Shown here: positions 6,330-19,634 of the stretch, one piece after another | Numbering within the stretch: position 1 is the first letter of the stretch | Layout: every line of letters begins with the position of its first letter | Assembly (NCBI RefSeq): GCF_012911975.1 | Contig: NZ_SMDQ01000010.1 | Span: 62,001 to 126,000, forward strand | DNA length: 64,000 nt | Direction of reading: 5' to 3' | Origin: Nodosilinea sp. P-1105 | GTDB lineage: Bacteria > Cyanobacteriota > Cyanobacteriia > Phormidesmidales > Phormidesmidaceae | Translations under genes and position numbers: made by a program | The notes under the pieces: generated by a model | Told to the model about the DNA's origin: nothing | What the model saw: the letters and a program-made list of their open reading frames with translations, nothing else | Database searches by the model: none

Positions 6330-6451
6330 GTCAAGATCTAAACTATGAAGTTCAGCCAAAGCTAATTGAGATTTTACGGACTTGGTAAAGGGGGGACGAA
6401 TATTGGATGTAAAGCGGCGGTCTTAACCCCTTGTAGTAGCTCCATGCCCCT

Positions 6452-7381
6452 ATGGTTAATCTCGTTAAACCCTTAAAGTCTCTGTCCCAGAGCGGCATTA
6501 GCCAGCTTAAAGTCGCCCTGGCGACCTGGCATGGGCGGTTTATTTTAGCTGGACTAACCCTGGGATTAGTCTATTTGCCTACTTGGTTTTCTCAGTTGTT
6601 TCGGCGATCGTTGATTCATGGGTCTACGGCACTGTCACTAATCCTGGTCATGGTGGCGCTAGGGGGATACCAGCTGTGGTCAAAGCGCTCTGAGCTAGCT
6701 CAGCTATCGGTTCTTGAGGCCGATCGCACCATTGGTTATGTGCTAATTTTGTGCAGCCTGGTGCTATTTCCCTGGTGTCGCTTTGCGGTGTGGCCTCAAT
6801 CTATTCTGTGGCTAACCGCTTTGATCGGTATGGCCATCAGTACCTGGGGGGGGACATTTTTTCTGTGTTATCCCTTACCACCGCTGATGTTTGCAGCAAC
6901 GGTTTATCCCCAGCCTGGGGCTTTGGCGCGTACCCTTTGGCAAACCCTAACCCCGGACCAATTTTTAGAACGGCTGATGGCCTACCTGGGGTCTGAGGCA
7001 TTGCAGTGGATTGGTCAGCCTGCTATCTCAGAAGGTCCCTATATTGCGATTCCTCCCAGTGGAGCAGTCCATGTGGACTGGGGCTGCAATGGCTTTACCA
7101 TGGCCGTTCAAATGGCGATCGCGGGCTTTTTTATGGGCGTGTTCCTAAAGCAAAACTGGTTCAAGACCGGGTTAATGATGGTGGTCGGGGCAATTTTGGC
7201 GCTGATTTTCAATATTCCCCGCATTATGCTGCTTACCCTGGCTTCGGTGTACTGGGGTGAAGGCTGGTTTGAATTTTGGCATGGCACCTGGGGTGGGCAG
7301 CTGTTTACAGGCGTTTTATTTACGCTCTATTACTACGCCATCATGGCCATGGTTAGCCGGCGGCCTAAAAAAGCAATCTGA
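6452..7381 (+). CDS. Cyanoexosortase (exosortase/archaeosortase family)
   Basis: A 309-residue multi-pass membrane transpeptidase-like protein. The three residues expected for exosortases are visible in order: Cys212 in DWGCNGFT, Arg257 in FNIPRIMLLT, and His277 in EFWHGTWGG. Enzymes of this family cleave C-terminal sorting signals (PEP-CTERM and relatives) at the membrane and are thought to attach the protein to a surface glycan, which fits the glycosyltransferase genes upstream. No obvious PEP-CTERM-type target protein is present in the window. The subtype (cyanoexosortase A, B or C) cannot be fixed by eye. The stop codon lies within the 9-bp target duplication of a small inserted element. 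Confidence 0.85.
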   Translation: MVNLVKPLKSLSQSGISQLKVALATWHGRFILAGLTLGLVYLPTWFSQLFRRSLIHGSTALSLILVMVALGGYQLWSKRSELAQLSVLEADRTIGYVLILCSLVLFPWCRFAVWPQSILWLTALIGMAISTWGGTFFLCYPLPPLMFAATVYPQPGALARTLWQTLTPDQFLERLMAYLGSEALQWIGQPAISEGPYIAIPPSGAVHVDWGCNGFTMAVQMAIAGFFMGVFLKQNWFKTGLMMVVGAILALIFNIPRIMLLTLASVYWGEGWFEFWHGTWGGQLFTGVLFTLYYYAIMAMVSRRPKKAI

Positions 7382-7384
7382 TCC

Positions 7385-7540
7385 CTGGTTGACTGACAAA
7401 TCTTGTTCCCCTCATCCCCCAACCTCTTCTCCCACAAGGGGCGAAGGGGAACCGGAAAAGTAGCTTGATTTTCAAAGTCCCTCTCCCGCTCTGGGAGAGG
7501 GATTTAGGGTGAGGGCTATAAACTTTTGTCAGTCAATCAG
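7385..7540. mobile_element. MITE-like element with 16-bp terminal inverted repeats and 9-bp target duplication
   Basis: The 156-bp element starts CTGGTTGACTGACAAA and ends TTTGTCAGTCAATCAG; the ends are inverted copies matching at 15 of 16 positions. It is flanked by perfect 9-bp direct repeats, ATCTGATCC, at 7376-7384 and 7541-7549. The interior holds G/C-rich arms common in cyanobacterial repeats (CTCTCCCGCTCTGGGAGAGG) and no ORF. This is the structure of a non-autonomous element moved by a transposase in trans. No matching full IS is in the window. Confidence 0.85.
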
Positions 7541-7597
7541 ATCTGATCCTTTCGAGTAGCTGATCACAAGTAACATCTCCTAGACTTATTTCCTTCA

Positions 7598-7645
7598 GCC
7601 CCAGGCCTCTTGGCTTGGGGCAATGTTGTGGTGCCTATTTTTTTT
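7598..7645 (+). terminator. Stem-loop followed by offset T tract (copy 1)
   Basis: GCCCCAGGCC (7598-7607), loop TCTT, GGCTTGGGGC (7612-7621) forms a strong hairpin with one G-U pair. It is followed 16 nt later by GTGCCTA and eight Ts (7638-7645). The T tract is too far from the stem for a textbook intrinsic terminator. An almost identical arrangement occurs at 19681-19728. Confidence 0.55.
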
Positions 7646-7688
7646 GATAGTCTCTTCTACACAATTCGCTGCCTTTGCATAAGGCTTT

Positions 7689-7733
7689 TATAAAGCTCCC
7701 GTGATCATCCGGATTATCTAAACTCCCTACGGA
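7689..7733 (+). promoter_or_regulatory. Upstream motif TATAAAGCT...CCTACGGA
   Basis: TATAAAGCTCCC at 7689-7700 and CTACGGA at 7727-7733 lie just before the lasso B2 gene. Related pairs precede both HpsJ-like genes (18301-18337 and 21851-21887). The spacing here is 8 nt longer. Function unknown; a shared operator or RNA leader element is possible. Confidence 0.4.
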
Positions 7734-7739
7734 GAGGGG

Positions 7740-8333
7740 ATGAGATATACCGACCTCACTCCCATGAAAAATGTTCCCAATGGCACCTTTTTCATAGGAG
7801 AGGAGTCATTGAATACTGTTTATAGAATGTTGTGGGGGTTGTCTATGGTTTTAGTGGGTGGCAGGCGTAAGTTAAAAATTCTTTGGCAACTGTCGTGGAA
7901 TGAGCGCTGGATTACGGCGCAGTCGTTTATCTTACTCCCGGCGATCGCGCTATCCCTTTCTCTATTTGGCTTGCCAATTACCCAGCGCTACCTAGCCCAG
8001 TTATCGCCGGTTGATATAGCTAAAACCGATTTAGCCTTTGCTGATGTTAAGCGCATGGCCTTTGCCGTCAACCGAGCCGCTAACCATAGTCCCCTGTGGG
8101 GCAACTGCTTGAAGCGATCGCTCACCCTATGGTTTGTACTGCGGCGGCGACAGATTCTCAGTGATTTACGGATTGGGGTTCGTAGGCATGAAGGCGAGTT
8201 TCAAGCCCATGCCTGGATTGAGTATGAAGGTGCTGTGCTGAACGATCGCCCTACGGTCTACCAGCTCTATTCTGCTTTTAAAGAAACCTTTGACGATGGG
8301 ATTTATGTCCAGCGTCCCCAGGGAAGAGCTTAG
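7740..8333 (+). CDS. Lasso peptide biosynthesis B2-type leader protease (transglutaminase-like)
   Basis: Up to 197 residues, a transglutaminase-core-3 type cysteine protease that removes RiPP leader peptides. With this start the likely catalytic triad is Cys123 (GNCLKRSL), His157 (QAHAWIEY) and Asp169 (LNDRP). The N-terminal third (RRKLKILWQLSWNERWITAQSFILL) matches the usual B2 start. The start is uncertain. ATG 7740 follows GGAGAGG closely, ATG 7764 is in frame, and a very strong AGGAGAGGAG (7796-7805) precedes an in-frame TTG at 7809, which would give a 174-residue protein nearer family length. It is the first gene of the RiPP cluster and acts with the B1 protein at 8734. Confidence 0.85.
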   Translation: MRYTDLTPMKNVPNGTFFIGEESLNTVYRMLWGLSMVLVGGRRKLKILWQLSWNERWITAQSFILLPAIALSLSLFGLPITQRYLAQLSPVDIAKTDLAFADVKRMAFAVNRAANHSPLWGNCLKRSLTLWFVLRRRQILSDLRIGVRRHEGEFQAHAWIEYEGAVLNDRPTVYQLYSAFKETFDDGIYVQRPQGRA

Positions 8334-8733
8334 CTAGGATAGCGCGATCGCCCTATTTCTCAACAGAACACTGGGGTTTTTATCTATGGCGTAGTTTTGT
8401 GTAGAGTGTACCTAGCACAAATAAAATTGTTGCGTTTATTGTCTAATGTCATGGCAAATAAACCGGAATTTCGGAGGATTTTTTTGTCCATCATCTCTTT
8501 AAGAAGAATACCTATTTTCCTTATCAATGCTTTAATCTATTCCATTTCAATTTCGTCTAATTACAGTTAAGCTGTATTCAAGTTAAGAAAACGGCTGTCT
8601 GTTATCTGAGCCTAGTACTCAAAATCACAAGATGGCCACAGTTAAAACATTTTTCTGTTAGCAAGAAATTAATCAGCCCAAAGCTGTTAATTAATGCTCT
8701 GACAAGTAGTCGCTATAATTTTAGAGGTTTTAT
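8334..8733. other. AT-rich intergenic region before the B1 gene
   Basis: These 400 bases hold no convincing ORF. They are clearly more AT-rich than the flanking genes, as expected for a promoter region. TATAAT occurs at 8714-8719, but it lies so close to the ATG (8734) that a transcript from it would lack the TTAGAGG ribosome-binding site, so I do not call it a promoter. Confidence 0.5.
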
Positions 8734-9033
8734 ATGCCTTCTCAGTTGGATATAACAAGCACAACCACCCTAAAAGCTACGTCAAATCAGGTGTCATCTG
8801 AGGTGGGCGAAGAAGTTGTAATTCTTCAGCTCCAGTCGGGGCAATACTTTGGTCTAGACGGGGTTGGGGCTGTGGTCTGGGAGAAATTGCAAACCCCAGT
8901 CACCCCCACCGAACTTGAAGCGGGTTTGATCAATGAGTTTGATGTTGAACCCGAGGTTTTACGCCACGACCTACAGGTGCTGATTCAAGATTTAGCAGCG
9001 GCTGGCCTGGTTGACGTTAAGGGTGAATCCTAA
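8734..9033 (+). CDS. PqqD-family RiPP recognition protein (lasso B1-like)
   Basis: A 99-residue winged-helix RiPP recognition element. The pattern EEVVILQLQSGQYFGLDGVG, AVVWEKLQ, then an acidic helix ending DLQVLIQDLAAAGLVDV is the PqqD fold. In split lasso systems this protein binds the precursor leader (YxxPxL motif) and hands it to the B2 protease. It lies 400 nt after B2 and 157 nt before the cyclase gene, on the same strand. The TTAGAGG before the start is repeated before the cyclase gene, so the two may be translated at similar rates. It is a free-standing domain, while two later genes in the cluster carry PqqD-like domains fused to enzymes. Confidence 0.85.
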   Translation: MPSQLDITSTTTLKATSNQVSSEVGEEVVILQLQSGQYFGLDGVGAVVWEKLQTPVTPTELEAGLINEFDVEPEVLRHDLQVLIQDLAAAGLVDVKGES

Positions 9034-9190
9034 CCACAAACCCGGAGTCGATTTTAGATTCTTGGCTGCTTTCTAAGCATAGGTAGAGGTTAACCCTAAC
9101 CGTTGCATCCAGGGGCCTCTTGTTACCTAAAAACTTTGCTGCCATTTATTGCATCTGAATCTAGCAAAATTTTAGAGGTCAGCACTGGTT

Positions 9191-11104
9191 ATGAGCGGCA
9201 TTTGCGGCATTATCCAGTTTAATCAACAGCCTGTAGACCCAACGGTGCTACAGGCCATGGCTGAAACCGTGGCCCACCGTGGCCCAGATGGCATTAACTA
9301 TATTTGCCAAGAGGCCGTTGGTTTAGCCCATTTGGCTCTGCACATTACCCCAGAGTCAGTCCAAGAACAGCAGCCCCTGCGGAGCCCCGATGACAGCCTT
9401 TGGTTAACCGCCGATGCTCGCATCGATAATCGCTCAGAACTGATTGCTGTTTTGTCAGCTAAAGGGCATTTAGCTACCCCCAACGCCACCGATGCCGATT
9501 TAATCCTGGCGGCCTATCGCTGCTGGGGGCACGACTGTGCCGCCCACTTAATCGGTGACTTTGCCTTTGCCCTTTGGGATGCCAACCGTCAGCAACTCTT
9601 TGCCGCCCGTGACCCCATGGCGACTCGGGCCTTGTATTACCGATACACCCCCCACCAGCTCCTATTTGGTACGGAGGTCAAGCAACTGCTAGCGGTGCCT
9701 GGGGTGCCAACCCGAATCTTCGAGCCGATGCTAGGGGCCTGGCTGGCCTTTCATCCCGGCAATGCAGACTGGACCTTCTACGAAGGAATAAAGCAACTAC
9801 CGGCCCGCCATGCCCTGGTCGCTGATGCCCAAGGCTGCCGAGTGTGGCCCTATTGGGATATTGACCCCAACCACCGCATCCGCCATCGCCATGCCGCTGA
9901 CTATGCCGAAGAATTTCGGGAGATCTTTCAAGAAGCTGTGGCCTGTCGCCTGCGTAGCATCAAGCCCGTGGGCTTGTTTATGAGTGGTGGGGTTGACTCT
10001 GGCAGCGTGGGGGCTATGGCCGGCAAGCTGGTGCAGGAAAACCCAGGGCAGTATCCCGCTTTTCGAGCCTACTCCTATGCCTTCGAAACCCTAACCCAGT
10101 GCGACGAGCGCCACATCAGTGACCCGATCGCCAAGCACTATGGCTTCCCGGTTACCGATATTCCAGCGGAAACCGCCTGGCCCCTAAAGGACTTTCCGGA
10201 CCACGGCCCCGATCGCGATGATCCCTGGATGGGCTGTTATCAAGCCCTGCACGACCTAACCCTGGCGACCGCCAAAGCCGAAGGCATGGGGGTAATGATG
10301 ACCGGCTCCCACGGCGACTTATTGGTGGGGGGGGACATTGTCGATGGTCTCGGCATGCTGGCCGCTGGAGACCTGTCCGGGCTATGGGCTGAACTTAAAG
10401 CCTACGGTCAGTGGCATGGTTTACCCCTGGCCCAAGTCGTTAGACAGCAGCTGGTACGCCCTGGTCTACGAGCGTTGTGGCCCGCCCATCGAGCCGTCTG
10501 GCTGAGAAATCAGCTACAGCCTAGCCGTTCTCCATCGCGGACTGTGGCCTTTGCTGACTGGGTAAATCCAACCTTCATTGACCGCATTGACTTAGCTAAC
10601 CGTTGTGTTTCGTCCCAGGTGCCTTCGGCGTTCACGGGAGCAAGACGACGACGCTATCAGGTTTTGTTTGATCCCGTATACGCCCGCTTAGGGACGTGGC
10701 ACGAACGAAATTTTGCCCGCTTTAACCTTTGCTGTACCGATCCCTGGAGCGATCGCCGCTTAGCCAGCTTTATCATGGCAATTCCCCAGCATCGGGTGAC
10801 CCGCCTGTTGGCCTCCAAGTGTCTAGCCCGTCAGGCCATGGCGGGGGTGGTGCCAGAGCCCAGCCGCCAGCAGATGGGCAAGATCTATCCCTCTGATCTT
10901 TGGCAGCAGGCTCTTAGCCATTCGGTCCAAGACACCATCACAGACCTAATCACAACCCCCCGTCTAGCAGACCAGGGATATATCAACCCAAGCCAACTGC
11001 AAGAACATTTTGACTCAACCGTCGCTCAGGGGGGAGACGAACACCCGAGCTTTTGGCCCACCCTGATGACCGAAGCCTGGCTCCGTCAATACAGTCTTAC
11101 CTAG
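9191..11104 (+). CDS. Asparagine synthetase-like lasso cyclase
   Basis: A 637-residue protein with an N-terminal class II glutamine amidotransferase domain (about 1-220; HRGPDG, GDFAFALWD) and a C-terminal ATP-pyrophosphatase synthetase domain with the PP-loop LFMSGGVDSGSVGAMA (about residues 260-275) and a GSHGDLLVGG motif. Lasso C proteins of this type adenylate an Asp/Glu side chain and close it on the new N-terminal amine. The N-terminus reads MSGICGII: the would-be glutaminase Cys is residue 5, not residue 2, so it cannot be the free N-terminal nucleophile unless the protein is processed. Loss of glutaminase use fits a macrolactam synthetase better than true AsnB. Neighbouring B1, B2 and precursor genes support this. 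Confidence 0.85.
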   Translation: MSGICGIIQFNQQPVDPTVLQAMAETVAHRGPDGINYICQEAVGLAHLALHITPESVQEQQPLRSPDDSLWLTADARIDNRSELIAVLSAKGHLATPNATDADLILAAYRCWGHDCAAHLIGDFAFALWDANRQQLFAARDPMATRALYYRYTPHQLLFGTEVKQLLAVPGVPTRIFEPMLGAWLAFHPGNADWTFYEGIKQLPARHALVADAQGCRVWPYWDIDPNHRIRHRHAADYAEEFREIFQEAVACRLRSIKPVGLFMSGGVDSGSVGAMAGKLVQENPGQYPAFRAYSYAFETLTQCDERHISDPIAKHYGFPVTDIPAETAWPLKDFPDHGPDRDDPWMGCYQALHDLTLATAKAEGMGVMMTGSHGDLLVGGDIVDGLGMLAAGDLSGLWAELKAYGQWHGLPLAQVVRQQLVRPGLRALWPAHRAVWLRNQLQPSRSPSRTVAFADWVNPTFIDRIDLANRCVSSQVPSAFTGARRRRYQVLFDPVYARLGTWHERNFARFNLCCTDPWSDRRLASFIMAIPQHRVTRLLASKCLARQAMAGVVPEPSRQQMGKIYPSDLWQQALSHSVQDTITDLITTPRLADQGYINPSQLQEHFDSTVAQGGDEHPSFWPTLMTEAWLRQYSLT

Positions 11105-11313
11105 GGTGAAGTTCTACCAGATTGACTGACTCGTTAACCTACCTTGTTTGTCACTATGCAGCCCCCTACCTTGCTGGTTCAGCGGGCTTCGAGAAGTCCC
11201 CCTGCGGGACAGCTTGAAGCACCGCTAGGGCAACGCCCATCGGCCTTGCCCTGAGGTTAACCCAGGTTCACCCCTGGTGTTTAACCCTTGTCTAACGTAA
11301 ACCCTTTTCTTTT

Positions 11314-11320
11314 AAGGAGA
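11314..11320 (+). promoter_or_regulatory. Strong ribosome-binding site of the precursor gene
   Basis: AAGGAGA sits 6 nt before ATG 11327. It decides the start in favour of 11327 over the upstream in-frame TTG at 11288, whose extra 13 residues do not resemble a leader. Confidence 0.8.
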
Positions 11321-11326
11321 AAAACC

Positions 11327-11509
11327 ATGAAAAAGTCCTACGAAACCCCTAAGCTCAGCACCTTTGGCAACGTGGCTGACCTGACAACTCAAGTGGGTAT
11401 GACTTTCACGACGGATAGCTTTGGCACCGGTAGCATGGCCTTCCCTGGCCAAGGCCAAGGTAGTGGAAACAACCAAGCTGGTGGTGGTGGTAACCCTAAT
11501 CGTCGGTAG
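11327..11509 (+). CDS. Lasso-type RiPP precursor peptide
   Basis: A 60-residue precursor. The leader shows Y5-x2-P8-x-L10-x3-G14, the lasso leader signature, followed by D18-L19-T20-T21. The rest (QVGMTFTTDSFGTG...) ends in a Gly/Asn/Gln-rich tail, NNQAGGGGNPNRR. Asp30 is the only acidic residue after the leader, so it is the only possible ring acceptor. Depending on the cleavage site the ring would have 9 residues (Gln22; Thr20 at -2), 8 (Val23; Thr21 at -2) or 7 (Gly24; no Thr at -2). None gives the usual Gly1 together with Thr(-2). It follows the cyclase gene by 222 nt and is followed by a hairpin at 11564. A non-lasso product of the same machinery is possible. Confidence 0.8.
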   Translation: MKKSYETPKLSTFGNVADLTTQVGMTFTTDSFGTGSMAFPGQGQGSGNNQAGGGGNPNRR

Positions 11510-11563
11510 GGTGTTTCACTATCAGCTAGTTCCAACTGCTAATGGTTAATTAGGCCTTGCCAT

Positions 11564-11589
11564 TGGGGCATCTGGTACCGGGTGCCCCA
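11564..11589 (+). terminator. Stem-loop after the precursor gene
   Basis: TGGGGCA (11564-11570) and TGCCCCA (11583-11589) form a perfect 7-bp stem with a 12-nt loop containing GGTACC. There is no T run. It may be a partial terminator or mRNA-stabilising hairpin that raises precursor transcript over the downstream enzyme genes, as is common in RiPP operons. Confidence 0.5.
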
Positions 11590-11682
11590 CTTCAATCAAG
11601 CACTTGGAGATGCTTTGCTTCCTATTTCTAGTTCTACTTATTAAATATTCCTCTTTAACTAAAACATTTATTTCTTCTCCCC

Positions 11683-12867
11683 ATGGGCGAACCTGCCACG
11701 CCATCAGTGATCAAATTAGCCTCTGGGCAACTCTGGAGCCAGCTGCCGAGCGCTAGCCTCTATGGGGCCATGCCCCCAGACCAGGGGCTCCTTACCCTGG
11801 CTCAGGCCCTAGCGGTTAGCCCCTTTTGGCAACAGACGTTGGGGGCTACCCTGGTGGTACGTTCTGGGCCAAATCCGGCCTTGACTGTCATTGGCAAGTT
11901 TGACGCTGCGACCCAGGCCCGGCTGGACTTTCTGGCGAGTTGGTTACCCCAGGCGCTGGCCGCTGTGCAATATGTTAGCTACGACCAGGTGGTTAGGGAT
12001 GGCGATCAACTGGCCGCAAACCTGACGGCTCGCCTGGGGGCCGACCTGCTGCAGCGGTGCCACTTTACCGCCATTCCCCGGGGGGGGCTGATTGTGCTAG
12101 GCCAATTGGCCTATGCCCTGCATCTGTCCCATCACCAGCTAGAAGGGGTGCCCGACCCCCAGGCCCCTGTGGTGGTGGTAGATGACTGTGCCCTGACCGG
12201 GGCGCGGTTTGCCGATTTTCTGGCCCAGCATCCCCATGACCAAGTGGTGTTTGCTTGCTTGTACGCCCACCCCGATCTGCGGCGGGCCATTGAACAGGCT
12301 GAGGACCGGGTACTGGCCTGTGTCAGCGCCCATGATTTGGCTGACTATGCGCCCCAGCGGTTTGGGGCCGAATACGAAGCCTGGCGTCAACGGGCCTGGC
12401 AACGCAGTGGCCGCCAACGCTACTGGGTGGGTCATCCGCCGCAGCTGTGTTTTCCCTGGAACGAGCCTGACCACAATTTCTGGAACCCGGTGACCGAGGA
12501 ATTGGAGAGTGGCTGGACCTTGGTGCCGCCCCAGTTGTGCGTCAAAAATCGACCCCAGGCTGGCCAGGTGACCGCATCGGTGCAGGTGCACCCCCCCCCG
12601 GCAGGGGCACTGCGCCCAGGGCCAGAGGTGGTCTTTGGCTATTGGCAAGGGCAACTGGTGGTGGGCAATGGGGCCACGGGCCAGAGTGTGGTGTTGTCTG
12701 AGGTGGCGGCTGATTTTTGGCAAGCGCTGATTACCCAGACCACCGTAGATCAGGCCTTGGAGCAGCTCGCCACCACCTATGAGGTGGAACCCGCTACCCT
12801 GCACGGCGATCTCACTGACTTCATTACGTCCCTGCTCGATCAGGGGTTTCTGATTAATGCTGCTTGA
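11683..12867 (+). CDS. Phosphoribosyltransferase-like protein fused to a C-terminal PqqD domain
   Basis: A 394-residue protein with an unusual architecture. The central part has a type I phosphoribosyltransferase signature: FTAIPRGGLIVLGQLAYAL, then VVVVDDCALTGARFADFL (about residues 163-180), where the DD-x3-TG element is the PRPP-binding loop. The last ~80 residues (GYWQGQLVVGNGATG ... LSEVAADFWQALI ... DLTDFITSLLDQGFLI) read as a PqqD-type winged helix, a RiPP recognition element. The first ~60 residues match nothing I recognise. Position between the precursor and the kinase gene suggests an enzyme that is brought to the precursor leader. Transfer of a phosphoribosyl group to the peptide is only a hypothesis; a non-catalytic nucleotide-binding role is an alternative. 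Confidence 0.7.
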   Translation: MGEPATPSVIKLASGQLWSQLPSASLYGAMPPDQGLLTLAQALAVSPFWQQTLGATLVVRSGPNPALTVIGKFDAATQARLDFLASWLPQALAAVQYVSYDQVVRDGDQLAANLTARLGADLLQRCHFTAIPRGGLIVLGQLAYALHLSHHQLEGVPDPQAPVVVVDDCALTGARFADFLAQHPHDQVVFACLYAHPDLRRAIEQAEDRVLACVSAHDLADYAPQRFGAEYEAWRQRAWQRSGRQRYWVGHPPQLCFPWNEPDHNFWNPVTEELESGWTLVPPQLCVKNRPQAGQVTASVQVHPPPAGALRPGPEVVFGYWQGQLVVGNGATGQSVVLSEVAADFWQALITQTTVDQALEQLATTYEVEPATLHGDLTDFITSLLDQGFLINAA

Positions 12868-12883
12868 ATGGTTGGTATGAACA

Positions 12884-13894
12884 ATGAGTCAACAAATTCT
12901 GCATAGCCCTGGGGCGGCGGCGATCGCCAGTCAGCAAACCTATAGCTTGTATGGGGTCACCCTGGGCAGCGATTTTGCCTTTGCCAATCGGTTAATGCCG
13001 GGGAGCGGTCAGCCCCAGTTGACGTTTCACTGCACCGAAACCAAGGCACCCACCCTAGATTGGCAAGCCACCGCCCCGGTTTATGCCAGCTCTACTCTAG
13101 ATGCCGATGGCAACAGTGAGCTACAGCTGTTTCAGACCCCTGACTACAGCGTGCTGCATTATCCCAACTGTACAGACTACTACCTGTGGCGCGATCGCAT
13201 CATTTGCCATTTAACCAACGACTTCCATCGCTACTGGGTGGAGGTGGGGTTGCTGGGGGGCGTCTTGTCCTTTTGGCTAGAGCAGCAGGGGATAATTGCC
13301 CTCCATGCGGCGGCGGTGGTGGTGAATGGTCATGCCATTGCCTTTGCCGCCACCAATAAAGGAGGTAAAACCTCCTTAGCCGCCTCGTTGATGCAGTTGG
13401 GTTACCCCCTGCTGACCGACGACATTCTGCCCGTGGCCGCCGATGGCCCCCAGATTTTAGGTCGACCGGGCTACCCACAAATGCGCATGTGGCCAGATCA
13501 GGCCGAGCATTTTTGGGGAGCCTACCAAGGGCTAGAGGCGGTGGTACCCCACCTATCGAAGCGGCGGATTCCGGTGGATGAGGGGGGCTTTGGTCAGTTT
13601 TGGGCAGAGCCAGTACCCCTGCGTTGCCTTTACCTGCCCGATCGCCGACCAGTGGACGATGGGGGTACAGCGGTGGAGATTACCCGCCTCTCTCCTCGGG
13701 AAGCCTTGCTGGAGTTAGTTAAACATGCCTTTGCGGCCCAACTCGTGGAAGCTGTGCCCCAGATGCAGCTCCATCGGTTTAGGCGCTTGGCACAGATTGC
13801 AGCCCAGGTTTCCGTGCGCCGCCTCAGCTACCCCAGTGGTGTAGCGTACCTGCCCCAGGTACGGGAGGCGATTTTGCAAGATGCCCAGACTTAA
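12884..13894 (+). CDS. HPr kinase-like RiPP tailoring kinase
   Basis: A 336-residue protein related to the C-terminal domain of HPr kinase/phosphorylase. The P-loop is in FAATNKGGKTSLAASLM (about residues 154-170), with the first Gly of the Walker A replaced, and LLTDDILPVA about 20 residues later gives the acidic pair. An upstream IALHAAAVVVNGHA strand is typical of HprK-related kinases seen in lasso and exosortase-linked clusters. Known lasso kinases of this type phosphorylate a C-terminal Ser. The precursor here ends NPNRR, so the target must be another residue or molecule. The gene starts 16 nt after the phosphoribosyltransferase fusion and 52 nt before the methyltransferase gene. Confidence 0.78.
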   Translation: MSQQILHSPGAAAIASQQTYSLYGVTLGSDFAFANRLMPGSGQPQLTFHCTETKAPTLDWQATAPVYASSTLDADGNSELQLFQTPDYSVLHYPNCTDYYLWRDRIICHLTNDFHRYWVEVGLLGGVLSFWLEQQGIIALHAAAVVVNGHAIAFAATNKGGKTSLAASLMQLGYPLLTDDILPVAADGPQILGRPGYPQMRMWPDQAEHFWGAYQGLEAVVPHLSKRRIPVDEGGFGQFWAEPVPLRCLYLPDRRPVDDGGTAVEITRLSPREALLELVKHAFAAQLVEAVPQMQLHRFRRLAQIAAQVSVRRLSYPSGVAYLPQVREAILQDAQT

Positions 13895-13946
13895 TGTGTT
13901 TCCCTATTATCCCTATTAACTTTCCTTTACACAGAACTTTAAACCT

Positions 13947-15092
13947 ATGATGTATAGCATTTCCTCCTATGGCCGCATGATTCTCGATCAGCCGCGCATG
14001 GATGCTTATTTGCAAGCGTTCAGGCATTCCATTCAGCCAGGAGCGGTGGTGATTGACATTGGTACTGGCACCGGCATCCATGCGCTGATGGCCTGTCAAC
14101 TGGGGGCGAGCAAGGTCTATGCCATTGAACCAGCGACCGCGATTCATCTGGCCAAGCAAATTGCCGCTGCCAATGGCTATAGCGATCGCATCGAATTTAT
14201 CCAGGGCATTTCCACCAAACTCACCCTGCCGGAACAGGCGGATGTGATTATCTCGGACCTGCACGGGGTCATGCCCTGGTTTGCCCAGCATATTCCGTCC
14301 TTAGTCGATGCCCGTCAGCGGTTGCTTAAGCCAGGGGGCATTTTGCTGCCCCAAAAAGATACCCTGTGGGGCGGGGTAGTCACGGCCCCCGAGTTATACC
14401 AGTCCTATGCTAGCCCGTGGAACGATGCCCCCTATGGTTTCGACTTGAGTGCTGGGCTCAAGGTTGAGCTCAATACCTGGGGTCGGGGTCGGGCTCATTT
14501 AGAACAGTTTTTGACTAACCCAGTGCAGTGGGCTGAGGTCGACTACCGCACCGTTGAAGAGCCTAACCTCAAGGCCCAAGTTAGCTGGACCGTTGATCGC
14601 CCCGGCCTGGCCCATGGCTACATGCTCTGGTTCGATACCCTGGTCACCGACGGCGTACCCTTGACCAGTGCCCCCTATGCCCCGGAAATTGCCTATGGCA
14701 GCGCCTTTTTTCCGTTCTTAGAACCCGTTGATCTCCAGGTTGGCGATCGCATTGAGCTGGATATTCGCGCTGATTTAATTAGCCAGGATTATATGTGGAC
14801 CTGGCATACCCAGGTGACCCGTTCTGGGCTAGCCCAGCCACTGGCTGAGTTTAAGCAGTCTAACTTCTTTAGTCAAACCCTCGATCCCCAAAAGCTACGG
14901 AAACGGGTACCCAGTTACGTGCCATCCCTGAGCGAAGATGGTCAAGTTGATTGCTCAATTCTTCAGGCGATGACCCAGCAGCTCACGGTCGAGCAAATTG
15001 CCCAAAAAGTAGCCGCCCAGTTTCCGGCCCAGTTCCCTCAGGGGCAAGATGCCCTTGACCGGGTGCGAGACCTGGCGCAGATCTATGGTTGA
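13947..15092 (+). CDS. PRMT-like SAM-dependent methyltransferase with PqqD-like C-terminal tail
   Basis: A 381-residue class I methyltransferase. Motif I is VIDIGTGTGIHALMACQLGA (about residues 34-53), then an acidic Glu in VYAIEP, IISDLHGVMP, and LKPGGILLPQ. The beta-rich second half resembles protein arginine methyltransferases. The last ~50 residues (DCSILQAMTQQLTVEQIAQK ... ALDRVRDLAQIYG) look like a PqqD-type helical segment. It probably methylates the peptide product, but the site is unknown: the core has two C-terminal Arg residues, side-chain amides and a C-terminal carboxylate. Its stop TGA and the ATG of the exporter share one base (TGATG), so the two are translationally coupled. 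ATG 13950 is an alternative start. Confidence 0.78.
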   Translation: MMYSISSYGRMILDQPRMDAYLQAFRHSIQPGAVVIDIGTGTGIHALMACQLGASKVYAIEPATAIHLAKQIAAANGYSDRIEFIQGISTKLTLPEQADVIISDLHGVMPWFAQHIPSLVDARQRLLKPGGILLPQKDTLWGGVVTAPELYQSYASPWNDAPYGFDLSAGLKVELNTWGRGRAHLEQFLTNPVQWAEVDYRTVEEPNLKAQVSWTVDRPGLAHGYMLWFDTLVTDGVPLTSAPYAPEIAYGSAFFPFLEPVDLQVGDRIELDIRADLISQDYMWTWHTQVTRSGLAQPLAEFKQSNFFSQTLDPQKLRKRVPSYVPSLSEDGQVDCSILQAMTQQLTVEQIAQKVAAQFPAQFPQGQDALDRVRDLAQIYG

Positions 15093-16984
15093 TGGTGGAA
15101 AAGCATGCAGTTGTGAACTACAAACCCATGGCATTTCTCTTACAAAAGCTGACAACCTTTAGGCAGCAGTTGATTTATATCCCCCAAGTTTTGGGGTTAA
15201 TTTGGCAGGCGGCCCGGGGGTGGATGCTGCTGTGGGGAATGGTGTTAGTGATTCAAGGGTTGCTGCCAGCCATCACCATTTTTCTGTCGCGCTCATTGGT
15301 GGATGGCCTAGTTAATGCCACAGGCCAAGGGCTGAGTGCGGAGGCGCTGTATCCGGTGTTGATTCCTGGGGCGGCCATGGTCGCTGTGTTACTCGCCAGT
15401 GAGCTATTGAATGGCGTGTCCACCTGGGTCCGGACCTCCCAGTCGGAACTAGTGCAGGACTTTATCAGTGGGCTGGTGCATCAGCAATCCATTGCGATTG
15501 ACTTTGCTTGCTATGAGTCCCCTGAATACAGCGATCGCCTAGAACGGGCGAGGGAAGGGGCCAGCCAACAATCGTTGTCTTTGCTAGAAAACCTCGGTAG
15601 TCTGCTGCAAAATGCCATTACCCTAGGGGCGATCGCCACGTTACTGTTAACTTATGGGCCATGGTTACCCTTAATTTTAGTCATTAGTGCTTTTCCGGCC
15701 CTGGTGATTGGGTTACGCCTCAACCTAGAGCAGTACCAGTGGTCACAACGTACCACCTCAGAACGTCGCCGACTGGCCTACTACGAATATTTACTCACCA
15801 GCAACTGGAGTGCGGCTGAACTCCGCTTATTTAATTGGGGCCATTACTTTGCCAAAGCCTATCAGCGGCTGCGAAAGCGATTACGAAAAGAACATATGCA
15901 GCTGATTCGTAAGCAGGCCCTGAGCCGTTTGCTGGCCAGCATGGTGGCCCTAGTGTTGTCTGGCTTGGCCTTGATTTGGATGAGCCAGCAACTATTGCTG
16001 GGGTTACTCACTATGGGTGATCTGGCTTTGTTTTATCAGGCCTTTAACCGAGGTCAGAGTATTATTAAAACCTTTCTAGGTAGCCTCGAAGAAATCTATA
16101 GAAACACCCTATTTATTAGTAACCTGTTTGAATTTCTAGACCTAGAGCCAGACGTCATTGATCCCCCTGATCCTCAGGTAATACCCCCCTCCTTAGCGCA
16201 GGGGATAGCATTTTCAAATATTAGCTTTATCTATCCAGGCTGCGATCGCGCCACCCTCACCAACTTTGACCTGGAAATCCCAGCCGGTAAAATTACAGCC
16301 ATTGTTGGAGACAATGGAGCTGGCAAAAGCACCCTGATTAAGCTGCTCTGCCGATTTTATGATCCAACCCAGGGCAAAATTACCCTAGATGGCATTGACC
16401 TGCGGCAGTTTGCAGTAGCCGACTTGCGCCGCGCCATTACCGTTCTGTTTCAAAACCCCATACCGTACTACGTGACGGCCGAGCAGAACATTGCTCTGGG
16501 TGACTGTCATGCTGACTTTAGTCGGCAGCAGGTGATAGCGGCGGCCCAGGGGGCAGGGATTCACTCTAAAATTATGGACCTCCCCCAAGCCTATGAGTCG
16601 CAGCTAGGCAAGTGGTTTGCGGGGGGCACAGATCTCAGCGGTGGCGAGTGGCAAAAACTCTCTCTGGCCCGAGCTTGCATCCGCGCAGCCCAGCTGATCA
16701 TTCTTGATGAACCAACCAGTGCCATGGATCCCTGGGCAGAGCATGAATGGCTGGCCCGCTTTCGCCACATGGCCCAGGGACGGACCACCCTCGTCATTAC
16801 CCACCGCTTTACCCTCGCCCGTCAGGCTGACCTGATCTACGTGATGAAGGCCGGAAAAATCATAGAGTCCGGCAGCCACGAGACCCTCCTCCGCCAGCAA
16901 GGCCTTTATGCTCAATCGTGGTTCACCCAGACCGGCCATCTCGAAAAAGCGCCCGCCGTCGCCCACCAAGAGACCCATTCCTGA
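15092..16984 (+). CDS. ABC transporter, fused permease/ATPase (peptide exporter, lasso D-like)
   Basis: A 630-residue half-transporter. Six hydrophobic helices occupy about residues 20-330. The ATPase has Walker A GDNGAGKST (about 405), signature LSGGEWQKLSLARA (about 515), Walker B LIILDEPTSAMD (about 533) and the H-loop LVITHRF. There is no N-terminal C39 peptidase, consistent with a system where B2 removes the leader. In lasso clusters this protein exports the mature peptide and gives immunity. ATG 15092 overlaps the preceding stop by one base; ATG 15128 is an alternative. The nucleotidyltransferase gene starts 20 nt later. Confidence 0.88.
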   Translation: MVEKHAVVNYKPMAFLLQKLTTFRQQLIYIPQVLGLIWQAARGWMLLWGMVLVIQGLLPAITIFLSRSLVDGLVNATGQGLSAEALYPVLIPGAAMVAVLLASELLNGVSTWVRTSQSELVQDFISGLVHQQSIAIDFACYESPEYSDRLERAREGASQQSLSLLENLGSLLQNAITLGAIATLLLTYGPWLPLILVISAFPALVIGLRLNLEQYQWSQRTTSERRRLAYYEYLLTSNWSAAELRLFNWGHYFAKAYQRLRKRLRKEHMQLIRKQALSRLLASMVALVLSGLALIWMSQQLLLGLLTMGDLALFYQAFNRGQSIIKTFLGSLEEIYRNTLFISNLFEFLDLEPDVIDPPDPQVIPPSLAQGIAFSNISFIYPGCDRATLTNFDLEIPAGKITAIVGDNGAGKSTLIKLLCRFYDPTQGKITLDGIDLRQFAVADLRRAITVLFQNPIPYYVTAEQNIALGDCHADFSRQQVIAAAQGAGIHSKIMDLPQAYESQLGKWFAGGTDLSGGEWQKLSLARACIRAAQLIILDEPTSAMDPWAEHEWLARFRHMAQGRTTLVITHRFTLARQADLIYVMKAGKIIESGSHETLLRQQGLYAQSWFTQTGHLEKAPAVAHQETHS

Positions 16985-17004
16985 CCCCTCTAACCACTGT
17001 TTCC

Positions 17005-18294
17005 ATGACGTCAACCCCAATGGCCATCACAGCACCCGCTATCCCTAACTCCCTGGAAATGCAACTGCTGTTTTGCTGTGCTCGAACCCATCTCAATACT
17101 AAGACCAAGCAAGTGATTCGAGAGTTGCTACAGCAAGAGCTTGATTGGGATTATCTCCTACCCCTCGCGGCCCACCATGGGGCTATGCCGCTTTTGAGCT
17201 GGCATCTAAAGCGGATTGGTCCAGATTTGCTCTCGCCGCAGATCTTGTCCCAGCTAAAGGATTGTCTGCACAGGAGTGCTAGACGTAACCTTTTCTTAAC
17301 TGGTGAGCTGCTTAATCTACTTGCTTTATTGAAGGAACATGGGATTCCAGTGATTCCCTTTAAGGGGCCGGTGTTGACCACATCCATCTATGGCAATATG
17401 GCACTACGCCAGTTTTCTGATCTTGATCTTTTAGTTGATCAACAAAACTTTCTAAAAGCGAAGGATCTCTTGCTTGATCATGGATACCATGCCACTACGC
17501 CTTGGTTTCTCAACGAAGCCCAGCGGATGTCCGTCATGCAGGGCTGGGGTGAGTATTCCTTGGCCAACCAAAATGAAACCGTGTATGTCGACCTCCATAA
17601 ACGCTTAGTCGCCGGCTACTTGTTTTCATTAACAGCCGATTTAGATTACTTTTGGAATTTTCTTGAACCCGTAACTTTGCTTGGCCAAACCGTCCATAGT
17701 TTTCGGGCCGAGGAAAACCTCCTCTATCTCTGTATCCATGGCGCTAAAAGCTTCTGGGAGCGGTTGATCTGGATTGTGGACGTGGCTGAATTAATTCAGG
17801 CCCATGATCAACTAGACTGGCGGCGATTACTAGAACAGGCTAAAACCCTTGGCTGCCAGCGAATGTTTTTGCTAGGCTGCTTTCTAGCCTACGACGTACT
17901 GGACATACAGTTGCCTGGGGAAATTCTCTCTAAGGTTGAAACTGATCCCCAGATCAAAGCCTTGGCCGGTCGAGTGTATCAGCGCCTCAGTGGCGAGGCT
18001 CGCTATCCTTGCCAAGAGGACTACACCATGGCTAGTTTTAAGTTCCATGTTCAGGCTATGGAGCGCCCTAAAGATAAAATTCGCTATGGCTGGAAATGCT
18101 TAATTAGTCACACCATTTTTCCTCTATATAAGATATTTAGACCCACTGCTTTTGATCGAGATTTTTATGAGTTGCCACCGTCATTCTATGGGCTTTACTA
18201 TTTCATCCGGCCCTTTCGGCTCATAAGAAATCTGGTTTTTATGAGCTGGGCCTCGCTGAGGGCGAGTACCCCGAAAGAGTCAGTCAATCGATAG
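17005..18294 (+). CDS. NTP_transf_5 family nucleotidyltransferase
   Basis: About 429 residues. The motif GIPVIPFKGPVL then YGNMALRQFSDLDLLV (about residues 113-145) is the nucleotidyltransferase-fold active site, with the DxD Asp pair in SDLDLLV. ENLLYLCIHGAKSFWERLIW and DVAELIQ in the second half are typical of the NTP_transf_5 family. Members occur in lasso clusters with an HPr-like kinase (for example with polyphosphorylated or glycosylated products) and in exosortase-linked HprK systems. I chose ATG 17005 because the ORF upstream of it overlaps the ABC gene; ATG 17020 is possible. It ends the RiPP run. A hairpin-free gap with the motif at 18301 follows. Confidence 0.8.
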   Translation: MTSTPMAITAPAIPNSLEMQLLFCCARTHLNTKTKQVIRELLQQELDWDYLLPLAAHHGAMPLLSWHLKRIGPDLLSPQILSQLKDCLHRSARRNLFLTGELLNLLALLKEHGIPVIPFKGPVLTTSIYGNMALRQFSDLDLLVDQQNFLKAKDLLLDHGYHATTPWFLNEAQRMSVMQGWGEYSLANQNETVYVDLHKRLVAGYLFSLTADLDYFWNFLEPVTLLGQTVHSFRAEENLLYLCIHGAKSFWERLIWIVDVAELIQAHDQLDWRRLLEQAKTLGCQRMFLLGCFLAYDVLDIQLPGEILSKVETDPQIKALAGRVYQRLSGEARYPCQEDYTMASFKFHVQAMERPKDKIRYGWKCLISHTIFPLYKIFRPTAFDRDFYELPPSFYGLYYFIRPFRLIRNLVFMSWASLRASTPKESVNR

Positions 18295-18300
18295 GAATAA

Positions 18301-18337
18301 TGTAAAGCTATCTTAAAGTCCATTGGAATTCTACGGA
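18301..18337 (+). promoter_or_regulatory. TGTAAAGCT-TAAAG-CTACGGA motif (copy 2)
   Basis: TGTAAAGCT (18301), TAAAG (18314) and CTACGGA (18331) precede the truncated HpsJ-like gene by 30 nt. The copy at 21851 has exactly the same internal spacing. Inheritance with the duplicated gene is one explanation; a working regulatory site is another. Confidence 0.4.
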
Positions 18338-18366
18338 GCTTAGCGGTGTTCCGTAAAGGTAGTGCT

Positions 18367-18624
18367 ATGGCCAGCTTATCTAATTCTTCTTCCATCGGCT
18401 TCGGCGGTCAATCGATCGCCCGGATTGTCGACTTTACCTGTCTGTTCGGCTTCCTGGCCGACATGCTCGCCCTGGCCCTGCCCTTTGGCGCTGGCGCCGC
18501 CTGGCGGGCGACCCTACTGCAACAAATGGGCGATCGCAGTATCGTTCTGTTAATGGGTTTAGCCCTCCTGGTCTACGGCTTTTGGTACCTTGACAGCCAA
18601 TGGCCTTCCCCTGGCTTAAACTAA
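18367..18624 (+). pseudogene. Truncated HpsJ-like membrane protein
   Basis: An 85-residue ORF that is nearly identical over its first ~70 residues to the N-terminus of the 212-residue protein at 21992 (shared core ARIV-FTCLFGFLADM, then GAGAAWRATLLQQMGDRSIV). Right after LVYGFW it diverges into a short unrelated tail (YLDSQWPSPGLN). Two membrane helices remain; the third, the coiled region and the last helix are gone. It is probably the broken copy of a duplicated gene. It could still make a short two-helix protein. Homology to HpsJ-like proteins of cyanobacterial exosortase or hormogonium polysaccharide systems is a family-level recollection. Confidence 0.7.
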
Positions 18625-18665
18625 AAGCAGATTTTCATAGGAGAAGGTAAGCCACCTTCACCACG

Positions 18666-19634
18666 ATGACACCCCCCGACCTGAAAAAAGCCGTACAAGA
18701 CATCCTCCCCCAGCTGATCGCCGAAGACCCTCAGGTGAGAGACTTTGTGCTGCGCACAGTCTCCAATTACTACGACAGCCGCGCCGAGACCGAAAGCAAG
18801 TTTGATCGCGTTTTAGCCGAACTCGAGCGCGATCGCGAAGAGCAGTCCCGCAAATGGGACGAGCAATATCAACACAATCGGGAGACCTTAGCCAACCTCG
18901 AGCGCGATCGCGCAGAGCAGTCACGCAAATGGGACGAACAGTCGCGCCAGTGGAACGAGCAATATCAACACAATCGGGAGACCTTAGCCAACCTTGAGCG
19001 CGATCGCGAAGAGCAGGCACGCAAATGGGACGAGCAGTCACGCAAATGGGACGAGCAACACCAGCAAAATCAAAATACCTTCGCTACCCTCGAGCGCGAT
19101 CGCGCAGAGCAGTCACGCAAGTGGGACGAACAGTCGCGCCAGTGGAACGAGCAACACCAGCAAACTCAAACCATGCTGGCTGAGATCCAGGATCAAAAGC
19201 GCCGCTACGACAGCTCTATCGGGGCGATTGGCTCTCGCTGGGGGCTTTACTCCGAGGAGAGCTTTCGCAGTGCGCTCAAGGGCATCCTGGAACAATCCTT
19301 TGGGGTGCAGGTGCTCAACATCAACGATTTTGATGAAGCGGGCGAGGTGTTTGGTCGCCCTGACCAGGTCGAGCTCGACATTGTGATTACCAATGGCTCA
19401 GTGATTGCCTGTGAGATCAAATCGTCGCTGAGTAAGTCAGACATGTATAGCTTTGATCGCAAGGTGGCCTTTTACCAAAAGCGCCACGAGCGCCCTGTGA
19501 GCCGCAAGCTGGTGATTTCGCCGATGGTCGACGAGCGAGCGCGGCCCGTGGCCGAAGCACTGGGCATTGAGGTCTACAGCTCTCCTCAGTCGATGCCTGG
19601 GTACCAGTACGGTGCAACAGATAATGTTTTATGA
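18666..19634 (+). CDS. Coiled-coil protein with C-terminal PD-(D/E)XK nuclease-like domain (DUF3782-like)
   Basis: A 322-residue protein. Residues about 45-175 are a highly charged coiled coil made of repeats of ERDREEQSRKWDEQ and NRETLANL-type units. The C-terminal ~130 residues have the restriction-fold pattern: GRPDQVELDIVITNGSVIAC, EIKSSLSKSDMYSFDRKVAFY, where Asp and the E-x-K are the usual metal-binding residues. Such cyanobacterial and archaeal proteins are usually annotated DUF3782; their role is unknown. The DNA for the coil is itself repetitive and rich in HIP1 octamers, so its length can change by recombination. It lies between the truncated HpsJ-like gene and a nest of repeats. 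Confidence 0.75.
   Translation: MTPPDLKKAVQDILPQLIAEDPQVRDFVLRTVSNYYDSRAETESKFDRVLAELERDREEQSRKWDEQYQHNRETLANLERDRAEQSRKWDEQSRQWNEQYQHNRETLANLERDREEQARKWDEQSRKWDEQHQQNQNTFATLERDRAEQSRKWDEQSRQWNEQHQQTQTMLAEIQDQKRRYDSSIGAIGSRWGLYSEESFRSALKGILEQSFGVQVLNINDFDEAGEVFGRPDQVELDIVITNGSVIACEIKSSLSKSDMYSFDRKVAFYQKRHERPVSRKLVISPMVDERARPVAEALGIEVYSSPQSMPGYQYGATDNVL
18822..19165. repeat. Coding DNA repeats in the coiled-coil gene
   Basis: Units beginning CTCGAGCGCGATCGCG or close variants recur at about 18822, 18897, 18993 and 19089, each followed by near-identical GAGCAGTCACGCAAATGGGA stretches. The reading frame is kept in all units. Confidence 0.75.

Follow-up and report, generated by a model that had tools for sequence, protein, structure and literature searches.

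Among the described lasso peptide systems, those of pseudomycoidin and paeninodin come closest to the subject of this study, a cluster of nine genes in the cyanobacterium Nodosilinea sp. P-1105 (contig NZ_SMDQ01000010.1, positions 62,001 to 126,000; this whole stretch of 64,000 nucleotides is referred to as the window). The kinase PsmK of the pseudomycoidin system phosphorylates a C-terminal Ser, and PsmN is credited with the addition of hexose there (PMC9266682). Lasso kinases have a set of His-Lys-Asp-Asp residues in common (PMC9266682), and the published relatives of these kinases act on the precursor (PMC9266682, PMC13381572). An HprK-like kinase, a recognition element (RRE) of ribosomally synthesized and post-translationally modified peptides (RiPPs), an NTP-transferase and an MsbA-like exporter constitute a published conserved set, about one third of which is linked to lasso enzymes (PMC13381572). 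Where an RRE is fused to an enzyme, it ordinarily keeps the leader bound during modification of the core by that enzyme (PMC7470986). The glycosylation of Ser in lasso peptides is already known, and the accessible text of the source contains no mention of "phosphoribos-" (PMC13352647).

The Nodosilinea cluster (window 7740-18294) codes for a fusion protein, here called PRT-RRE, that combines a phosphoribosyltransferase (PRTase)-like domain with a lasso-type RRE, and for an HprK-like kinase encoded next to it. These two proteins very probably play a role in lasso tailoring. The more specific proposition, to which we give even weight for and against, is that the cluster contains a leader-guided two-enzyme tailoring module in which PRT-RRE phosphoribosylates the core and the kinase marks the same or an adjacent site. 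The original prediction, made from the DNA alone, had taken the pair of kinase and nucleotidyltransferase as known from a few lasso systems and had considered its combination with a PRPP-type enzyme and a PqqD-tailed methyltransferase unfamiliar. We found no published report of PRT-RRE; the kinase, the NTP-transferase and the MsbA-type exporter have already been published together (PMC13381572, PMC9266682). The newness of the system hence lies in PRT-RRE and, to a lesser degree, in a methyltransferase resembling protein arginine methyltransferases (PRMTs). A literature search, conducted mostly by title and leaving subscription papers largely uncovered, found no PRTase in a lasso or RiPP pathway, which leaves absence unproven; in one paper that mentions both lasso peptides and a phosphoribosyltransferase, the latter is only hisZ, a marker gene.

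Architecture, occurrence and gene neighbourhood of PRT-RRE

An AlphaFold2 model of PRT-RRE built from seven homologues (mean pLDDT, the predicted local distance difference test score, 82) recovered both parts of the phosphoribosyltransferase-like fusion that had originally been predicted. Residues 93-285 take up a purine PRTase fold (HGXPRT, 5bqp_B, Z 12.8, 2.4 Å over 123 residues), and residues 308-392 match the stand-alone lasso RREs TfuB1 (6jx3_B, Z 11.3 over 85 residues) and TbiB1 (5v1u_C, Z 10.9). TbiB1 (8.2e-12) and TfuB1 (2.9e-6) are also the top matches of the C-terminus in a profile search of the PDB, and Pfam PqqD matches this region with 46.4 bits (cut 23.4). Because the PRTase-like domain is fused to a lasso-type RRE, the tailoring enzyme likely acts on the peptide. 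When aligned with the E. coli Gpt protein, all nine PRT proteins retain the RGG of the pyrophosphate loop and the two adjacent Asp residues of the loop that binds phosphoribosyl pyrophosphate (PRPP). The alignment can be read as a retained PRPP donor site and a purine acceptor site that is not retained; phosphoribosyl transfer from PRPP would be the simplest reading, since the donor site is kept. The segment CFPWNEPD is invariant across the first seven members and is found in variant forms in genomes G842 and G893.

Intact PRT-RRE proteins are present in nine genomes (Nodosilinea, G296, G446, G447, G448, G449, G450, G842 and G893) from four phyla, the cyanobacteria, Chloroflexota, Acidobacteriota and Gemmatimonadota; the protein is rare and spread over these phyla, and not the oddity of a single genome. 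Full-length copies occur in 2 of 386 cyanobacterial genomes (Nodosilinea and G296; 1 of 63 within the order), 1 of 251 Chloroflexota, 3 of 220 Gemmatimonadota and 1 of 217 Acidobacteriota genomes, fractions that are not unbiased rates, as the phylum samples were built around genomes known to bear PRT-RRE. A pattern scan of an 84,980-species collection yielded at least seven loci, six of them intact, a lower bound in that the patterns would pass over variant motifs like the ones in G842 and G893. The counts leave aside 11 of the 12 raw matches among the 251 Chloroflexota genomes (confined to the RRE range), the RRE part of a B1 protein in G213, a protein of 578 aa in G349 whose PRTase motif is related and a split fragment (residues 201-292) in L013; L008 and L005 are one contig of G296 and were counted once. 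The L013 fragment is a split PRT gene in a Bacteroidetes draft (6442-6721), and the G349 protein (L078, 1333-3069, minus strand; motif LLDDCSLSGSSF) is possibly a relative of the PRTase-CE family outside lasso clusters. Carriage on mobile elements was considered and found no support: there is no match in 72,556 plasmid records and none in viral contigs (pattern and tblastn), the phage collection not having been searched.

The original prediction had taken the cluster for one lasso pathway with unusual tailoring and had named recurrence of the fusion beside lasso genes in other cyanobacteria as a check. In the neighbourhood search, PRT-RRE and its kinase do recur beside lasso genes, which supports a single pathway, and they do so mostly outside the cyanobacteria, in Chloroflexota, Acidobacteriota and Gemmatimonadota; both further cyanobacteria hold the fusion away from such genes. 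The kinase directly adjoins PRT-RRE in eight of the nine intact loci, with one 220-aa frame in between in L007 (G446). A lasso cyclase adjoins the pair in six of eight judgeable loci (Nodosilinea, G447, G448, G449, G450 and G842); G893 is not judgeable and stands outside this count, and L063 was left out as its contig ends within the kinase. Besides the window, the pair is thus accompanied by a cyclase in five of seven judgeable genomes and the methyltransferase is adjoined by lasso genes in three of five, so that the last five genes of the cluster are not mostly found away from lasso genes.

The order cyclase (C), precursor (A), PRT-RRE and kinase (K) is common to the window, the Chloroflexota locus L009 and the Acidobacteriota locus L012, each of which has a precursor with the YxxPxL motif encoded between cyclase and PRT-RRE. 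L009 reads B1-B2-C-A-PRT-K, and its precursor (..YQKPELVEYGELKDLTLGSGSARRTDLKVGSWTV; lasso_leader_L3, 27.1 bits, cut 19) would, with a core beginning GSGSARRTD, form a textbook 9-residue ring; no nucleotidyltransferase (NT) or ABC exporter match lies inside its 10-kb flanks, and a PRMT-like methyltransferase is found about 3 kb beyond the kinase on the opposite strand. L012 (C-A-PRT-K; precursor ..YSAPELIQWGTIFDLTGNILNGTQDGFFSGTEPT) has an NTP_transf_5 gene 3 kb further, on the opposite strand and after two polysaccharide-type genes, whose link to the cluster is unsure. In the Gemmatimonadota genome G842 (L064), about 11 kb hold NT, precursor (..YVRPSVEDFGLVADLTATGTTQDGADAKGGSAASQGI), B2, cyclase, PRT-RRE, kinase, a second cyclase, ABC exporter and B1. 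In G448 and G449, PRT-K-C stands at a contig end, and the rest of the cyclase, B1, B2, ABC and NT lie on a second, presumably neighbouring contig that is not joined to the first. NTP_transf_5-type genes are near PRT-RRE in five of the nine genomes (Nodosilinea, G448, G449, G450 and G842), of which two (G448, G449) have them on that presumed neighbour and G450 is unsure. Searches with two motif patterns found no precursor in G448, G449 and G893.

In a tree of 14 kinases (of 14 related frames, the 197-aa frame of L041 was omitted), the seven PRT-adjacent kinases from outside the Thermosynechococcaceae group together as a single clade (97/98). The nine fused RREs are separated from ten stand-alone B1 proteins by a 99/97 branch, which would fit a single old PRT-RRE fusion that has been retained since. 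PRT-RRE and the kinase seem to form a module of long standing with ties to lasso biosynthesis. Matches of the kinase to HprK profiles are weak in the NCBIfam and Pfam scans. Its residues His141, Lys162, Asp179 and Asp180 are invariant in an alignment of nine kinases (five from the PRT clade, four others) and would, in our own mapping, be equivalent to the published His-Lys-Asp-Asp of lasso kinases. None of the four PRT-linked precursors has the C-terminal Ser used by paeninodin-type kinases; their final residues are Arg, Val, Thr and Ile, and the site of the PRT-linked kinase therefore appears to differ from that of pseudomycoidin.

Proposed reaction and competing explanations

From what is known of the families, B1 would bind the leader, B2 would cut it, and the cyclase would close the ring on Asp30 of the precursor. 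Before the leader is cut, PRT-RRE would dock on it via its own RRE and, using PRPP, would transfer a 5-phosphoribosyl group to the core. Its partner, the kinase, would phosphorylate a Ser or Thr at or beside the phosphoribosyl site, giving one composite mark; that both enzymes act on one site is suggested by their constant pairing, and at a common site the phosphate may precede the ribosyl group or follow it. The NTP_transf_5 protein may extend the phosphate, as proposed for PsmN in pseudomycoidin (we take PsmN to be a member of the same Pfam family), the methyltransferase would cap a residue, and the ABC protein would serve in export. The donor PRPP, the acceptor, the order of steps and the product are what we infer here. 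Phosphoribosyl transfer by PRT-RRE is accordingly put forward as tentative, and we advance with a shade more reserve that the clusters make nucleotide-like lasso peptides, which bear ribose-5-phosphate from a leader-guided PRTase joined with a kinase mark. PRT-RRE would then be, to our knowledge, the first PRPP-using enzyme to act on a ribosomal peptide product.

Several observations weigh against this proposal. The PRTase half of the window protein scores below the Pfam cuts for Pribosyltran (13.8 bits, cut 26.3) and PRTase-CE (13.9 bits, cut 27), its assignment therefore resting on the fold, and no PRTase was matched at E 1 in the PDB profile search. Gpt Asp92, presumably a purine contact, is replaced by Leu, and Gpt Thr96 by Arg, in all nine PRT proteins, so that altered or lost activity, or a binding rather than a catalytic role, is possible. 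Model residues 261-279, right after the conserved CFPWNE, have a pLDDT below 50. Two precursors, those of L012 and L064, are without an NCBIfam match at E 0.01 and rest on motif and place, and the four PRT-linked cores, compared by eye, have no common residue beyond the presence of Ser/Thr. B2 was searched for in G450 and not found. The two Thermosynechococcaceae (L005/L008 of G296; L007 of G446) carry kinase and PRT-RRE with no lasso gene nearby, and their kinases fall outside the seven-kinase clade; the draft genome G446 yielded no match to B2, and its sole AsnB-like match is 546 aa long. The PqqD tail that had been ascribed to the methyltransferase is unproven: Pfam PqqD gave no match, the profile match is weak (probability 18.5%, P 0.0013), and the single-sequence model (pLDDT 38) is unusable. 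Certain fused RREs in other RiPP enzymes may furthermore be vestigial (PMC7470986). As separate observations, the kinase and PRT genes of L005 and L007 lie downstream of a gene that, by eye, resembles one for a CHAT-domain protein.

The substitutions at Asp92 and Thr96 speak for an explanation that we regard as unlikely, though deserving of attention, namely that the PRT half, guided by the leader, binds or converts a different ligand (nucleotide, ppGpp or phosphopeptide) without transferring phosphoribose. Its role could then be to present the phosphorylated core to the kinase or to make the pathway dependent on the nucleotide state. PRTase-CE is the PRTase family matched by most members (six of seven at E 1 or better, with 2.4e-4 as the lowest value), PRTase folds also act as PyrR-type regulators, and one ppGpp-bound protein is among the fold matches. 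Yet neither the RGG loop nor the Asp pair of the PRPP loop varies over the four phyla, a constancy that would be needless in a pure scaffold.

It is improbable that the locus is an ordinary paeninodin/pseudomycoidin-type cluster with kinase, NTP-transferase and MsbA exporter, in which PRT-RRE and the methyltransferase are passengers. All His-Lys-Asp-Asp residues of the kinase are indeed present, and the kinase, RRE, NTP-transferase and MsbA-like exporter correspond to the published, partly lasso-linked set (PMC13381572) described above. A passenger would, however, hardly be fused to a lasso-type RRE, have the kinase beside it in nine of nine loci (counting L007 with its intervening frame) and adjoin a cyclase in most judgeable loci from four phyla, and the absence of a final Ser in the PRT-linked precursors also argues against paeninodin-type chemistry. 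Less probable still is that PRT-RRE and kinase are a self-standing module with other substrates as well that is merely often parked in lasso clusters, for although the Thermosynechococcaceae loci without nearby lasso genes and the missing B2 of G446 favour it, their RREs are of the lasso type and fall among the remaining fused RREs, the L007 contig spans no more than 6.3 kb of a draft genome, and PRT-RRE may act in trans in G296, since a further contig of that genome bears a B1-B2-C-A-K lasso cluster, complete with a kinase of its own.

Through the fusion, what was a vague annotation becomes a testable statement on a novel type of peptide modification. Should PRPP be the donor, a charged sugar-phosphate group taken from a central metabolite would become available as a handle on peptides, and other leader-tagged peptides could be modified with the enzyme as well. 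For genome mining, one can search for VDDC.L[ST]G.R with PW.EP and an RRE behind it.

Gene content and origin of the Nodosilinea cluster

All nine predicted frames were confirmed on the plus strand where they had been placed, and the family scans agree with a lasso cluster (Table 1), with a cysteine leader peptidase (B2), an RRE (B1) and an AsnB-like macrolactam cyclase, whose top NCBIfam match, lass_lactam_cya, stays under its strict cut.

Table 1. Genes of the Nodosilinea sp. P-1105 lasso cluster (window positions; scores in bits)
Product	Position	Strand	Matches and features
B2 leader peptidase	7740..8333	+	Transglut_core3, lasso_biosyn_B2 82.2 (cut 33)
B1 stand-alone RRE	8734..9033	+	PqqD family, 57.9 (cut 23.4)
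Lasso cyclase, AsnB-like	9191..11104	+	lass_lactam_cya 429 (strict cut 525); Asn_synthase 113 (cut 21)
60-aa precursor	11327..11509	+	leader YETPKLSTFG..LT; lasso_cyano 34.1 (cut 33)
PRT-RRE	11683..12867	+	purine-PRTase-like domain, residues 93-285 (model); C-terminal lasso-type RRE, 308-392
HprK-like kinase	12884..13894	+	weak HprK profile matches; TIGR04352 27.3 (cut 200)
PRMT-like S-adenosylmethionine-dependent methyltransferase with C-terminal tail	13947..15092	+	PRMT_C 29.8 (cut 27)
MsbA-like ABC exporter	15092..16984	+	ABC_tran 104.6 (cut 25)
NTP_transf_5 nucleotidyltransferase-family protein	17005..18294 (frame open from 16918)	+	208.4 (cut 31.2)

The intergenic distances, from B2 to NT, are 400, 157, 222, 173, 16, 52, -1 and 20 nucleotides; the genes from PRT-RRE to NT are tightly packed, and the lasso core genes are loosely spaced. 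The original prediction of coupled genes stands for the methyltransferase and the exporter, whose stop and start overlap in TGATG, with the exporter start moved from TTG 15089 to the more likely ATG 15092; for the nucleotidyltransferase, ATG 17005 is probably the start instead of the predicted GTG 16918. A transcriptional split into two gene groups was considered and not supported by scans of positions 7300-18700, in which 18 terminator-like sites (13.8, sd 3.9, in shuffles) and 9 promoter-like sites (8.7, sd 3.1) were counted, numbers that do not thereby show a single transcript; the terminator scan found no such site on the plus strand in the gap between precursor and PRT-RRE.

The precursor, MKKSYETPKLSTFGNVADLTTQVGMTFTTDSFGTGSMAFPGQGQGSGNNQAGGGGNPNRR, has the predicted YxxPxLxxxG leader, LTT at positions 19-21 and the acidic Asp30, and its lasso_cyano score is barely above the cut. 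The motif itself is common, with seven matches among the short frames scanned in the window and in nine loci, three of them distant from any lasso gene (one in the window, two in L009), and the call thus rests on place and family score. After Asp18, Asp30 is the sole acidic residue, and the ring would therefore close on it; a ring of nine residues is predicted if the core begins at Gln22, and one of eight if it begins at Val23. A Thr is conserved at the penultimate leader position of lasso precursors (PMC10368454).

The methyltransferase carries a PRMT_C subdomain, and the window precursor contains Arg59-Arg60, whereas the precursor of L006 is without Arg. Homologues at E 1e-30 are found in 6 of 386 cyanobacterial genomes and are adjoined by lasso genes in four (Nodosilinea, G213, G314 and G185) and not in G116 and G053; the tail of the cluster hence has local kin. 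The G116 copy (L072) has an internal stop and no lasso match nearby. L009 encodes a second kind of PRMT-like methyltransferase (14948-16045, minus strand; PRMT_C 24.0 bits, cut 27).

Among 12 cyclases (of 13 frames, the contig-end pieces L010 and L011 were omitted), that of the window is placed with those from PRT-bearing clusters of Gemmatimonadota (100/100). The G+C content is 62% for PRT-RRE and 58% for kinase and cyclase, 53-55% for methyltransferase, exporter and precursor, and 48-50% for B2, B1 and NT. Taking the cyclase and kinase trees together with this contrast, we propose that a block of cyclase, PRT-RRE and kinase was acquired from a distant source and became linked to a tail of cyanobacterial genes. 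In a tree of the ABC proteins (7 rows), the window exporter sits on a long branch with no supported place, and this tree neither supports nor opposes a cyanobacterial origin. The cluster appears to be accessory, because 24 other sampled congeners gave no cyclase match at E 1e-40.

Two neighbouring genes deserve mention. A cyanoexosortase C gene (window 6452-7381; 370.5 bits, cut 225) lies immediately upstream of the lasso cluster. A UbiA protein resembling decaprenyl-phosphate phosphoribosyltransferase (window 5014-5958; 242.6 bits, cut 207), another PRPP user, is encoded 1.8 kb upstream of B2 on the same strand, after a run of genes resembling glycosyltransferases; a link to the lasso genes is not shown.

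Comparison with known systems

The psm and paeninodin clusters resemble the window in having an HprK-like His-Lys-Asp-Asp kinase beside lasso genes, and psm also has an NTP-transferase-type gene (PMC9266682); they differ in that their kinase targets a C-terminal Ser and in that the available descriptions include neither a PRT-RRE nor a PRMT-like methyltransferase. The lpp-type RiPP clusters of Bacillota have in common with the window an HprK-like kinase, a discrete RRE, an NTP-transferase and an MsbA-like exporter (PMC13381572), but their defining feature is an archaeal-type signal peptidase, and "phosphoribos" is absent from the accessible text of that paper.

Among cyanobacteria, the clusters of G213, G314 and G185 have B1, cyclase, precursor, kinase and PRMT-like methyltransferase genes like the window, those of G213 and G185 also ABC and NTP_transf_5-type genes; in contrast to the window, no PRT was found in them, and their kinases lie outside the seven-kinase clade. 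G213 holds its B1-C-A-K-MT-ABC-NT cluster (L006; MT, methyltransferase) and a B2 on a further contig. On its contig C36 (L041), a distance of about 10 kb separates two lasso cyclases, each accompanied by a kinase match; one NTP_transf_5 and one ABC gene are present as well.

At the protein level, the PRT half corresponds to the type I purine PRTases XGPRT and HGXPRT in its fold, in the Asp-Asp of the PRPP loop and in the RGG pyrophosphate loop, and departs from them in the exchanges of Asp92 for Leu and of Thr96 for Arg, in an extra N-terminal part and in the C-terminal lasso-type RRE. Residues 308-392 agree with the stand-alone RREs TbiB1 and TfuB1 in fold and profile match, but unlike them they are fused to a PRTase-like domain and stand on a branch apart from the stand-alone B1 proteins.

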